The position numbers and the translations under genes were made by a program. Shown here piece by piece: positions 42,068 to 48,454 of a DNA stretch of 64,000 bases. The DNA lies in the NCBI RefSeq assembly GCF_030065885.1, contig NZ_JASJCS010000007.1:46625-110624 (forward strand), given 5' to 3'. The first letter of the stretch is position 1, and each line of letters opens with the position of its first letter. The notes under the pieces are model-generated. The model did no database searches. It saw only the letters and a program-made list of their open reading frames with translations, and was not told the origin of the DNA. The stretch is from Ilumatobacter sp. Lineage in GTDB: Bacteria; Actinomycetota; Acidimicrobiia; Acidimicrobiales; Ilumatobacteraceae.

Positions 42068-43075
42068 GTGGATGCGTATCCCGCCCCCACGCTCTCCGAC
42101 GGCGCGCGTTTCGATGTCACCGGCATCGGCAATGCGCTCGTCGACGTGATCGCACACGCCTCCGACGAGTTCCTCGACGAACACGGGCTGACCAAGGGCT
42201 GGATGGACCTGATCGACACCGAGCGCGCCGTGTCGCTCTACAAGGCGCTCGGATCGGCGGTCGAGATGAGCGGCGGTTCGGCCGCCAACACCATGTGCGG
42301 GGTGGCGAGCTTCGGTGGGTCCGCCGCGTACGTCGGCAAGGTCACCGACGATGAGCTCGGAGCCGCTTTCGGCCACGACCTGCTCGCCGTCGGCGTGCAG
42401 TTCCGGCCCGGCGACGATCAGAACGACGTGCCCACCGGACGCAGCATCATCGTCGTCACGCCCGATGCCGAGCGGACGATGAACACGTTCCTCGGGGCGT
42501 CGAGCCTGCTCGGTATCAGCGACTGTGACGACGAGACCATCGCCGACTCGAAGGTGCTCTACATGGAGGGGTACCTGTACGACCGTGACGAGGCCAAGGC
42601 GGCGTTCCGCCATGCGTCCAAGGTGGCGCACGAGGCCGGACGGATGGTCTCGCTCACCCTCTCGGACTCGTTCTGCGTCGATCGTCATCGCGACGACTTC
42701 CGTTCGCTCGTCACCGACGAGGTCGACCTGCTCTTCGGGAACGATGCCGAGTTGATCGCGCTCTACGAGACCGAGACGTTCGACGACGCGGTCGCCGAGC
42801 TCCGCCAGCACTGCGAGTTCGCGGCCATCACGGTCGGCGCGAACGGCTCGATCATCATCACCGATCACGATCTCATCGAGATCCCCGCCGTTCCGGTCCG
42901 CAGGGTGATCGACACGACGGGGGCCGGCGACCTCTACGCCGCCGGGTTCCTGCACGGCCTGACCACCGGGCGGCCGCTCGACGAGTGCGGTCGGCTCGGA
43001 TCGATCGCTGCTGCCGAGGTGATCTCGCACGTCGGGCCGCGTCCGCTGGTCGAGCTGCGTACGCTGGTCGGGTGA
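42068..43075 (+). CDS. PfkB-family sugar kinase, adenosine kinase-like
   Basis: The 335-aa ribokinase-fold enzyme has DVTGIGNALVDVIAHASDEF, the substrate-site GGSAANTMCGVASFGG, and the catalytic DTTGAGDLYAAGFLHG anion hole near residue 285. The length and N-terminus resemble adenosine kinases. It could phosphorylate adenosine or another nucleoside. The start is the GTG at 42068, 8 nt after TAGCGT. Its last about 80 bp are repeated twice more downstream (tandem duplication), pushing the following mutase gene away. It lies in a nucleoside salvage region. Confidence 0.88.
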   Translation: MDAYPAPTLSDGARFDVTGIGNALVDVIAHASDEFLDEHGLTKGWMDLIDTERAVSLYKALGSAVEMSGGSAANTMCGVASFGGSAAYVGKVTDDELGAAFGHDLLAVGVQFRPGDDQNDVPTGRSIIVVTPDAERTMNTFLGASSLLGISDCDDETIADSKVLYMEGYLYDRDEAKAAFRHASKVAHEAGRMVSLTLSDSFCVDRHRDDFRSLVTDEVDLLFGNDAELIALYETETFDDAVAELRQHCEFAAITVGANGSIIITDHDLIEIPAVPVRRVIDTTGAGDLYAAGFLHGLTTGRPLDECGRLGSIAAAEVISHVGPRPLVELRTLVG

Positions 43076-43308
43076 GCAGCGGCCGCGGCCGCGGGTGATC
43101 GGCTCGGGATCGATATCGCTACTGCCGCAGTGGCGTCGCACGTCGGCAGCGGCGTCCGCTGGTCGAGCTGCGTACGCTGGTCGCGTGAACAGCGGCGGCC
43201 GTTCGACCGGTCCGGTCGGCTCGGATCGATCGCTCCTGCCGCGGTGATCTCGCACGTCGGCAGCGGCGTCCGCTGGTCGAGCTGCGTACGCTGGTCGCGT
43301 GAACAGCG
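42991..43308 (+). repeat. Tandem triplication of the pfkB 3' end/pgm start junction
   Basis: Three related units begin at 42991, 43099 and 43216 (TCGGCTCGG...) and each ends in TACGCTGGTCG(G/C)GTGA(G/A)CAGC, with the GTGs at 43072, 43185 and 43299, a period of 113-114 bp. Unit 1 is the coding end of pfkB, unit 3 ends at the real start of the mutase gene, and unit 2 lies between. Each unit carries a -10-like box and a GTG, so each could initiate. Confidence 0.85.
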
Positions 43309-44894
43309 ACGACCTCCGCTCCACCGCTGGACGCTGGCTGGCGGCCGAACCCGACGACGACATCCGAACCGAGCTGCAGGCGCTCATCGACGGCGACGCC
43401 GACGAGCTCGCTGCGCGCTTCGCGGACCGGCTCCAATTCGGCACCGCCGGCCTGCGGGCCGCCGTTGGCGCCGGGCCGCTGCGCATGAACCGGCTGGTCG
43501 TACGGCAAGCCGCCGCCGGGCTCGCGCAGTACCTGCTCGACACCGACCCGCTGGCTCGCGAGCGTGGCGTCGTCGTCGGCTACGACGCCCGGCGCAAGAG
43601 CGACGTGTTCGCCGCCGACACGGCGCGGGTCATGGCCGCGGTCGGCATCCCGGCCCGCCTGTTCGACCAGCAGGTGCCGACGCCGGTGCTGGCGTGGTCG
43701 ATCACCCACCTCGGCTGCGCGGCGGGCGTCGTGGTCACCGCCTCGCACAACCCACCCGCCGACAACGGCTACAAGGTCTACCTCGGCGACGGCGCCCAGA
43801 TCGTCCCGCCGCACGACGTCGGCATCTCGGCGTGCATCGGCCGCGTCGACGCCACCTCGGTGCCGCTCGCTCCCGACGACGATCCGTTGATCAGCACCGT
43901 CGGCGACGAGCTGGTCGACGCCTACATCGCCTCGGTGCCCGCCGTGCGGCGTCGACCCGACGTCGCCGGCGTGCCCGTGGCATACACCGCCATGCACGGG
44001 GTCGGCGGCGAGACCGTGCTCCGGGCGTTCGAGGCGGCCGGCCTGCCGGCACCCGCCGTCGTCGCCGAGCAGTTCGAGCCCGACGGCTCGTTCCCGACGG
44101 TGTCGTTCCCGAACCCCGAGGAACCGGGTGCGATGGACCTGCTGATGAGCGTGGCGCAGTCGTCCGGTGCACATGCCGCACTCGCCAACGACCCCGACGC
44201 CGACCGGCTCGGCGTGGCCATCCCCCAGGCGGACGGGTCGTGGCGACGGCTCGGGGGTGACGAGATCGGCTGGCTGTTCGCCGACTACCTGCTCGGCAGC
44301 GACACCGGCGCCGATCGACTGGTCGTCACCACGCTCGTGTCGTCCTCGTTGCTCGGCAAGATGGCGGCCGCCCACGGTGTCCACGCCGCCGAGACGTTCA
44401 CGGGCTTCAAGTGGATCGCGCGGGCGGTGCACGAGCATCCCGACCTGCGGTTCGTCATGGGCTACGAACAAGCGCTCGGCTACCTCGTGGCCGCTGCGCC
44501 GCTCGACAAGGACGGCATCACCGCCGCCGTGCTCTTCGCCGAGATGGCCGCCGTCGCGGCTGCCGAGGGGAGGACGATGCAGGACTGGCTCGACGACCTC
44601 GCTTCCCGCTTCGGCCGTCACGTGCTCGCTGACGCCGCGGTCCGCATGCAGCCGGCCGACGCGGCGGCCAAGGTGGCCGCGCTGCGGGCGGCGCCGCCGG
44701 CGGCGATCGGCGGTCGTGCCGTGGTGGCGACCGACGAGTACCCCGAGGCCGACCTCGTCCGCTTCGAGCTCGAGGGCGGCGTCCGGGTGCAGATCCGACC
44801 GAGCGGTACCGAGCCCAAGGTGAAGCTCTACGGAGAGGCGGTCGACGAGGACCCGAAACCGTTCGTCGACGCCCTCGCTGCGCTGCTCGCGTGA
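43299..44894 (+). CDS. Phospho-sugar mutase (PmmB/phosphoglucomutase family)
   Basis: The 531-aa alpha-D-phosphohexomutase carries the phosphoserine loop TASHNPPADNGYK, the metal loop DPDADRLG, the sugar loop GYEQALGYL and the phosphate-binding RPSGTEPKVKLYGE. In mycobacteria the homologous pmmB lies beside deoD, upp and add, so a role in pentose-1-phosphate or hexose-phosphate interconversion during nucleoside salvage is plausible; the substrate is not proven. The start is the GTG at 43299, 6 nt after TACGCT, within the third unit of the tandem repeat. Confidence 0.88.
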   Translation: MNSDDLRSTAGRWLAAEPDDDIRTELQALIDGDADELAARFADRLQFGTAGLRAAVGAGPLRMNRLVVRQAAAGLAQYLLDTDPLARERGVVVGYDARRKSDVFAADTARVMAAVGIPARLFDQQVPTPVLAWSITHLGCAAGVVVTASHNPPADNGYKVYLGDGAQIVPPHDVGISACIGRVDATSVPLAPDDDPLISTVGDELVDAYIASVPAVRRRPDVAGVPVAYTAMHGVGGETVLRAFEAAGLPAPAVVAEQFEPDGSFPTVSFPNPEEPGAMDLLMSVAQSSGAHAALANDPDADRLGVAIPQADGSWRRLGGDEIGWLFADYLLGSDTGADRLVVTTLVSSSLLGKMAAAHGVHAAETFTGFKWIARAVHEHPDLRFVMGYEQALGYLVAAAPLDKDGITAAVLFAEMAAVAAAEGRTMQDWLDDLASRFGRHVLADAAVRMQPADAAAKVAALRAAPPAAIGGRAVVATDEYPEADLVRFELEGGVRVQIRPSGTEPKVKLYGEAVDEDPKPFVDALAALLA

Positions 44895-46508: not shown

Positions 46509-47109
46509 CACCCAACCCGGGCACGATGAATGCGGTGTCGTTCAGGTGGTCGTCGACGGCGGCCGTGTACACGTGCAGCTCGAGGCCTTCGTCGCGGAGC
46601 CGCTGGATGCCCTCGGGCGCGGCGAGAGCACAGACGACGGTGATCGGTGTCGGCGCGTCGCGGGCCACCAACAGCTCGACGGTGTGGACCAGCGAGCCCC
46701 CGGTGGCCAGCATCGGGTCGATCACGATGACGGGTCGACCGGCCAGCGTCTCGGGCAGCTTGTTGACGTACGGGTGCGGCTGGAACGTGGCCTCGTCGCG
46801 GGAGATCCCGATGAAGCCGACGTCGGCGATGGGCATCAGTTCCTGCGCGGGGTGCACGAAGCCGAGGCCGGCACGCAACACCGGCACGATCACGGGCTGT
46901 ACCGCCAGCCGCCGCGCCGGGGCCGTGGTCAGCGGCGTCTCGACCGTGCCGTCGATCGTTGGCAACGACTTGGTCGCCTCGGCGAGGAGCAGCGTGCCGA
47001 TGCGCTCGAGGTTGTTGCGGAACAGCGGGTTCGGCGTGTCCCGGTCCCTGATCCTCGCGAGGGAGTCAGCGACGAGCGGGTGGTCGACGAGGGTGACGGT
47101 GACGGACAT
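46474..47109 (-). CDS. upp: Uracil phosphoribosyltransferase
   Basis: The 211-aa enzyme makes UMP from uracil and PRPP. The PRPP loop VIVIDPMLATGGS and the uracil-binding C-terminus GDAGDRQFGSG are intact. The ATG at 47109 has GGAG 8 nt upstream. A near-identical copy of its first 14 codons and leader lies 140 bp upstream, forming a mini-ORF that stops 14 nt before this start. It sits between the glycosyltransferase and adenosine deaminase genes in the nucleoside salvage island. Confidence 0.96.
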   Translation of the reverse strand: MSVTVTLVDHPLVADSLARIRDRDTPNPLFRNNLERIGTLLLAEATKSLPTIDGTVETPLTTAPARRLAVQPVIVPVLRAGLGFVHPAQELMPIADVGFIGISRDEATFQPHPYVNKLPETLAGRPVIVIDPMLATGGSLVHTVELLVARDAPTPITVVCALAAPEGIQRLRDEGLELHVYTAAVDDHLNDTAFIVPGLGDAGDRQFGSGV

Positions 47110-47143
47110 GTGTGCTCCGGCGTTCAGGTGGGTGGCTCGGCGC
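47069..47143 (-). repeat. upp 5'-end repeat, proximal copy
   Basis: A 75-bp unit covering the first 14 codons of upp, its ribosome-binding site and part of the leader. It matches 47209-47283 at 73 of 75 positions, with an exact spacing of 140 bp. Confidence 0.9.
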
Positions 47144-47249
47144 CCGGTCGTGCGACTGCCAGGGAGCCGGCCGGTGATGGGGTTCGGGGGCGCAGCTCCC
47201 GGGGTGGGGCGACGAGCGGGTGGTCGACGGGGGTGACGGTGACGGACAT
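47124..47249 (-). CDS. 41-codon upstream ORF made from a duplicated upp start
   Basis: Starting at the ATG at 47249, the frame reads MSVTVTPVDHPLVA, the first 14 residues of Upp with one change, then a Pro/Arg-rich non-homologous tail to a TGA at 47124, 14 nt before the upp ATG. It keeps the same GGAG ribosome-binding site as upp. It is too short for the track. Translation could influence upp through coupling, or it may be a neutral by-product of the 140-bp duplication. Expression is unproven. Confidence 0.45.
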   Translation of the reverse strand: MSVTVTPVDHPLVAPPRELRPRTPSPAGSLAVARPGAEPPT

Positions 47250-47283
47250 GTGTGCTCCGGCGTTCAGGTGGGCGGCTCGGCGC
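47209..47283 (-). repeat. upp 5'-end repeat, distal copy
   Basis: The second copy of the 75-bp upp start unit, two mismatches from the first. The high identity suggests a recent tandem duplication with a 65-bp unrelated-looking segment between the copies. Confidence 0.9.
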
Positions 47284-47316: not shown

Positions 47317-48396
47317 TCAACCCGCTCCCATCGAGGCCTCGGCGTTGAGCAGCGCGTAGCGGGGCTTGATGAACCCGTTGATGATCTTCAGCCGCTCGGG
47401 GAACGGCGCGAACGCCGACTTCATGGCGTTGATCGTGAGCCACTCGAGGTCGGCGAGATCCCAGCCGAACGCATCGTGGAGCTGGAGCATCTCCCTGGTC
47501 ATCGACGTGTCGCTCATCAACCGGTTGTCGGTGTTGAGCGTCACTCGGAACCGCAGCCGGCGCAGCAGACCGATGGGATGGTCGGCGATCGAGGCGCAGA
47601 CGCCGGTGTTGACGTTGGACGTCGGGCAGAGCTCGAGACAGATCCTCCGGTCGCGGACGTACGACGCCAGCCTGCCGAGCTGCTCGTCGCCCTCGGGGCC
47701 GGTGATGTCGTCGACGACGCGAACCCCGTGACCGAGGCGGGCTGCGCCGCAGTACTGGAGCGCCTCCCAGATCGACGGCAGCCCGAACGCCTCGCCGGCA
47801 TGGATCGTGGAGTGGAAGTTCTCGCGCATCACGTACTGGAACGCATCGAGGTGCCGCGACGGCGGGTAGCCGGCCTCGGCGCCCGCGATGTCGAAGCCGA
47901 CGACCCCGCGATCGCGGTTGGCGACCGCCAGCTCGGCGATCTCACGGCTGTGGGCGGCGGTCCGCATCGCAGAACAGATCGTGTAGATCGTGAGATCGGT
48001 GCCGTTCGAGCCGCGTTCGAACCCGGCGAGCACCGCATCGAGCACCTCTTGGAGCTCGAGCCCGCCCTCCATGTGCAGCTCGGGAGCGAAGCGCACCTCG
48101 GCGTAGACGACGCCGTCGTTCGCGAGGTCCTCGGCGCATTCGAACGCCACACGCTCGACGGCGTCGCGCTGTTGCATGACCCCGACGGTGTGGGCGAAGG
48201 TCTCGAGGTACAGCACGAGGTCGTTGCGCTTGGCGCCCCGGTTGAACCATGTGCTCAGCTCGCCGATGTCGGTGGTCGGCAGCCTGTCGTACCCGTACTC
48301 GGCCGCCAGCTCGACGACCGAGGACGGTCGCACGCCGCCGTCGAGGTGGTCGTGGAGCAGCACCTTGGGAGCCCGCTCGATCAGGCCGCGGATCAT
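47317..48396 (-). CDS. add: Adenosine deaminase
   Basis: The 359-aa enzyme deaminates adenosine to inosine. The metal-binding [10 protein letters not shown] near the N-terminus, [15 protein letters not shown] with the catalytic Glu, CPTSNVNTG and the LNTDNR metal site are all present. The start ATG at 48396 follows a TACGGT box by 6 nt; the 432-aa track form adds an implausible Arg/Pro-rich stretch. It lies between upp and the PhyH oxygenase on the same strand as the BMP transporter, consistent with salvage of imported nucleosides. Confidence 0.95.
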
Positions 48397-48454
48397 GCGG
48401 ACACCGTACCGAGTCCCGAGCGCCGGAGTCGCTGCCGCGTCGGTGCCGGTGGGG

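Follow-up and report, generated by a model that had tools for sequence, protein, structure and literature searches.

A dispersed hairpin element flanked by duplicated gene junctions and its probable insertion between add and upp in Ilumatobacter

The window analysed here, a stretch of 64,000 nucleotides from an Ilumatobacter sp. genome, carries add and upp as neighbours on the minus strand, and the upp orthologue likewise adjoins add in most of the relatives viewed. The junction between the two genes holds two copies of a 75-bp sequence, a 65-bp spacer between the copies and two short open reading frames (Table 1). The genome, a short-read MAG, comprises 200 contigs totalling 5.04 Mb, with 90.7% completeness and 5.1% contamination, and the relatives used for comparison are Ilumatobacter and Ilumatobacteraceae MAGs of a GTDB-based collection.

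Table 1. Features at the add/upp junction, in window coordinates
Feature	Position	Strand	Evidence
upp, uracil phosphoribosyltransferase, 211 aa	46474..47109	-	Pfam PF14681, 210 bits
Proximal 75-bp copy of the target duplication, with mini-ORF stop TGA, SD (GGAG), upp ATG and first codons	47069..47143	-	
Relay mini-ORF, 41 codons	47124..47249	-	frame common to other copies in the same orientation
Inserted element, 65 bp, oriented as upp	47144..47208	-	genome matches and model R1
Distal 75-bp copy of the target duplication	47209..47283	-	
Upstream mini-ORF, 17 codons	47264..47317	-	sequence
add, adenosine deaminase, upstream gene of the junction	47317..48399	-	Pfam PF00962, 346 bits

The 75-bp copies are 97% identical with a start-to-start spacing of 140, and by chance a repeat like this would virtually never be expected in 64 kb (about 1e-31). 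They differ at two sites, numbered on the coding strand of the copy: G/A at position 11 and C/T at position 54, the second of which turns Leu7 into Pro. The 41-codon mini-ORF opens with MSVTVTPVDHPLVA, the Upp counterpart being MSVTVTLVDHPLVA; its N-terminus matches 13 of the first 14 Upp residues, 27 residues follow, and its stop codon lies 14 nt upstream of the upp ATG at 47109. Its 14 N-terminal residues come from the distal copy, RELRPRTPSPAGSLAVARP from the spacer and the tail GAEPPT, with the stop codon, from the proximal copy. An earlier sequence-only reading had described the two copies with their two differences and this mini-ORF, and both were found as described. At the other end of the junction, the add stop codon overlaps the ATG of the 17-codon mini-ORF (TGATG), which ends inside the distal copy, 14 nt before the 41-codon mini-ORF. 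The 17-codon ORF is missing from the closest relatives. Its origin as a decayed older element was considered and found unsupported, the match being 8 bp long.

The earlier reading took the cause to be a recent duplication of 140 bp. A search of the window's own genome led to a different account: similar sequences occur elsewhere for the 65-bp spacer but not for the repeat. What was duplicated is a tract of 75 bp, which flanks an inserted hairpin element of a dispersed type, and the remaining 65 bp of the supposed 140-bp unit are single-copy at the upp site. The upp element folds into a hairpin, CGGGAGC-TGC-GCCCCCG, followed by ACCCCATC and a second hairpin, CCGGCTCCCTGGCAGTCGCACGACCGG; it scores 67.9 bits with model R1 (E 2.9e-12) and is the sole significant match in the window. 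Among 121 genomes of the same taxonomic family, 10 contain the pattern GGGGGCNGCGCCCCCNNACCCC, with 73 copies between them, a figure that takes in some related or tandem copies; a reversed control pattern gave about one match, and a slightly longer pattern had no match among 396 further genomes drawn from across the phylum. From 35 copies we built a covariance model, which found four in the window's genome, located at upp, at nuoI/nuoJ, at an rplP/rpmC-like ribosomal protein junction and before a nuoA-like gene, and fewer or none in most genus relatives. No match above the gathering threshold was obtained with Rfam for eight element loci, and assignment to a known structured RNA family was set aside. 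In the literature, we found no repeat element described for Ilumatobacter.

Across the family the element measures about 65-80 bp and occurs in both orientations, and several tandem pairs lie 84-116 bp apart. When copies were stacked, positions from roughly −10 to +57 relative to the hairpin were conserved, with no conservation outside, and no terminal inverted repeats were seen. Paired columns covary in both hairpins (for example C-G 19 and T-A 12), and the most variable pairs lack intermediates changed on one side only; this covariation would fit selection on the folded strand. Two genus members, G003 and G008, share an element at livM/livG. Divergent copies also stand in ribosomal protein operons at G000:C110:9372 (L215) and G003:C77:30935 (L216), where the flanking repeat has decayed to TGAnATG. 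In the closed, single-contig genome G009 the element lies between nuoK and nuoL; nuoK ends in ATGA, and from its ATG a 33-codon relay ORF leads to TGATG at nuoL. Such copies bear on whether the upp arrangement is an assembly artefact. A short-read MAG in 200 contigs with 5.1% contamination invites the suspicion, but the two copies differ at two sites, flank a spacer that is unique at the site and lie inside a 110-kb contig; moreover, the architecture recurs in independent assemblies and a gene-junction copy is present in a single-contig genome. We regard an artefact as extremely unlikely.

The direct repeats stop just before the element and resume just after it, with lengths of 8-75 bp. To place these repeats against a background, control positions were taken from the same loci: border-fixed direct repeats scoring at least 10 were found at 39 of 58 usable copies versus 4 of 216 control positions, and those scoring at least 12 at 29 of 58 versus 0 of 216. 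About a third of the copies have no detectable duplication, and the longest of the simple duplications is that of the upp copy. At nuoI/nuoJ of the window's genome, 52 bp of junction sequence are directly repeated on either side of the hairpin, again with a spacing of 140. Gene frames, chosen by codon-position G+C bias, were decidable for 33 of the 42 duplication-bearing copies; in 27 of these 33 the duplication contains the stop codon of the upstream gene, and in 17 it contains the downstream start as well.

Comparison among strains, which the earlier reading had called for, revealed empty sites: three genus members (L008, L009 and L010) have a plain TGATG overlap between add and upp, and nearly all relatives viewed have an ATGA or GTGA overlap between nuoI and nuoJ. 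In another genus clade (L014, L015 and L016), a mini-ORF of 13-14 codons bridges the two genes without the hairpin element; its start overlaps the add stop and its stop overlaps the upp start, each time as TGATG.

These data speak to a simpler origin, namely that the upp start region was merely duplicated in tandem, by replication slippage or unequal exchange, with an incidental 65-bp spacer. Short-range duplications do occur elsewhere in this genome, at about 7 sites in the 341 kb surveyed, and the junction of pfkB with a mutase gene is tandemly triplicated without an element. The spacer at upp is nevertheless a recognisable family member, the repeats of other copies share the same element borders and relatives have empty sites. 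Tandem duplication alone is thus quite improbable here, and the element family had already largely refuted it. The earlier reading had drawn a parallel with the pfkB/mutase repeat, which turned out to be a separate event and was rejected as a sister case: it is a tandem triplication over a GTGA junction, has no element and occurs at a single place in the genome. In the window, positions 42969-43314 hold the 3' end of pfkB in three tandem copies (spacing 113/114 bp) over this junction with a phosphoglucomutase-like gene. Other short-range tandem repeats of 47-284 bp, at L128, L130 and L132, also lack an element of the upp type.

The spacing of the duplications follows a reading-frame rule. Of 43 cases, 31 have a sum of insert and duplication equal to 2 mod 3 (p=2e-7), and when the cases were divided by classes defined post hoc, after viewing the data (as were several other classes), this spacing was found in 26 of 28 with an overlap motif in the duplication versus 5 of 15 without (Fisher 8e-5). 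For overlapping gene pairs, a relay ORF can reach the second stop only when this sum is 2 mod 3. At 140, the upp spacing also equals 2 mod 3, and the 41-codon ORF there agrees with the rule. Its frame, (R)xLRPRTPSxxGSLAxARP, is the frame used at other sites in the same orientation; at livM/livG the relay reads RGLRPRTPSSSGSLALARP in the frame of the upp relay. Many further sites have open ATGA or GTGA relays with 2 mod 3 spacing. Because 81% of shuffled elements are open as well, openness of the relay frame is weak evidence of coding and was rejected for that purpose.

A translation relay or coupling arrangement is the best reading of the mini-ORFs that the sequences offer, in which the relay would keep ribosome traffic moving from the upstream gene to upp. 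Coupling at upp may be weak, as the relay ends with a 14-nt gap instead of a 4-nt overlap and upp has its own SD. Of the two functions suggested by the earlier reading, coupling or attenuation, the first gained support from spacing and frame conserved across the element family, and the second found none. A dedicated leader peptide or attenuator that regulates upp could be imagined from the mini-ORF directly upstream of the gene and the strong hairpins in the spacer. It is very improbable, however, given that the arrangement is missing at upp from all genus relatives, that the same element precedes unrelated genes (nuo, liv and ribosomal protein operons), that no run of pyrimidine-related codons is present and that the element-bearing loci have no Rfam match.

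We conclude that a mobile hairpin element probably inserted at the add/upp junction and duplicated 75 bp of target. This conclusion builds on the element family, the flanking target duplications, their location at gene junctions, the empty sites and the frame-constrained spacing; from these sequences we infer that the element may move as a mobile element, that the mini-ORFs may be translated and that coupling may be preserved. In the proposed course of events, a short hairpin element of about 65-80 bp would enter the add/upp junction and duplicate a 75-bp target that holds the stop codon preceding upp together with the SD and start codon of that gene. With the junction present twice, the upstream gene would keep a stop and the downstream gene a start, and since the duplicated target includes the SD and start codon, upp would have kept its own initiation region. 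The displaced copy would become the start of a mini-ORF that runs through the element and ends shortly before upp. From add, ribosomes could then pass to the 17-codon ORF, from there to the 41-codon ORF and on to upp, and by virtue of this relay the insertion would be roughly neutral for expression of the operon. Counted against the conclusion are the small number of copies in this genome (four), the relay stop 14 nt before the upp start, the weak evidence from openness, the third or so of copies without a detectable duplication, the failure of candidate mover enzymes to track with the element and the MAG source.

Two kinds of candidate enzyme were considered. The presence of a Y1 transposase does not track the copy number of the element, and the high-copy genomes G044, G062 and G051 gave no Y1_Tnp match; reverse transcriptase families do not track copy number either. 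Both were rejected as the mover. The far end of the element tends to be complementary to the adjoining target: the mean stem is 4.46, as against 3.79 +- 0.15 when permuted (0 of 2000 permutations). This complementarity may have been left by the insertion process. At L146, L160, L180, L202 and other loci, an inverted copy of the target stands where the element faces the upstream gene and forms a hairpin around the stop codon, for example GGCAT-GAGCGAAGCGA-ATGCC; the feature is significant in the permutation test. Break repair would account for several of these features: a staggered break is filled in and captures hairpin sequence from elsewhere, making the element a recurrent repair filler, not a transposon. 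The wide range of duplication lengths (8-75 bp), the lack of terminal inverted repeats, the failure of any transposase to track the element and the inverted target copy at the far end, as snap-back synthesis would give, all agree with this alternative. A recurring unit of about 65-80 bp with conserved ends, covariation and a preference for gene junctions suits a dedicated element better, and we hold break repair to be unlikely. Of a dedicated element it might further be proposed, although we hold this to be rather unlikely, that it belongs to a new class of mobile element whose movement makes target duplications of any length (8-75 bp) with an inverted target copy at one end, is aimed at translation start/stop junctions and persists because its insertions rebuild the signals of both genes and add a frame-matched relay ORF.

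Several known systems share part of this description. REP elements (GTAG/CGTC, RAYT-mobilised; PMC3733652) are also short dispersed palindromes outside genes, but the Ilumatobacteraceae element has target duplications and its consensus has no GTAG tag; together with the Y1_Tnp result for the three high-copy genomes, this led us to reject the GTAG class. A MITE of a DDE insertion sequence was rejected as well, since no TIR is present and the duplication length is not fixed. IS1549/IS1634 produce direct repeats of variable length, 8-514 bp, without a mechanistic model (PMC2266710). Long variable-length direct repeats are all that the element has in common with these full-size insertion sequences, which carry a transposase, whereas the element is 65-80 bp long and has no visible terminal inverted repeats. 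YPAL/RU-2 of Yersinia, a 168-bp palindrome with variable target duplications of 3-26 bp (PMC2229807), is likewise small and mobile, has inverted repeats within it and is not A+T-rich. It is longer, at 168 bp, and start/stop targeting or a relay ORF is not described in PMC2229807; the comparison is one of descriptions.

Mycobacterial interspersed repetitive units (MIRUs; Supply et al. 1997, as given in PMC12548453) are described as mobile repeats whose insertions fall on start codons; an ORF inside the repeat is coupled to the gene at -4 nt, which keeps the effect of the insertion small (PMC12548453). In both cases short, dispersed and apparently mobile units stand at start codons or start/stop junctions within operons and also form tandem arrays, and they have an internal ORF whose coupling to the next gene, putative in the present family, would let the insertion be tolerated. 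The 73 copies are dispersed intergenic operon units within the 40-100 bp range, some of them tandem; their insertion at start/stop junctions is seen in the duplicated stop codons and the empty sites, and the MIRU-type 4-nt overlap of ORF and start is found at many sites, with the 14-nt gap in its place at upp. The Ilumatobacteraceae element may therefore work like a MIRU, a likeness of described features and not of sequence. It differs in having two conserved hairpins, flanking duplications of 8-75 bp and both orientations; what would be new relative to MIRUs is the taxon, the paired hairpins and the long, variable target duplications. To our knowledge, there is still no settled account of the movement of MIRU-like repeats or of their placement at start/stop junctions. 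The present family is unrelated-looking, lies far from mycobacteria in a group of environmental bacteria and has clear target duplications and empty sites, and insertion, target choice and the reading-frame rule can therefore be counted directly. It also suggests a route by which overlapping gene pairs separate and by which short operon ORFs that start like a real protein arise.
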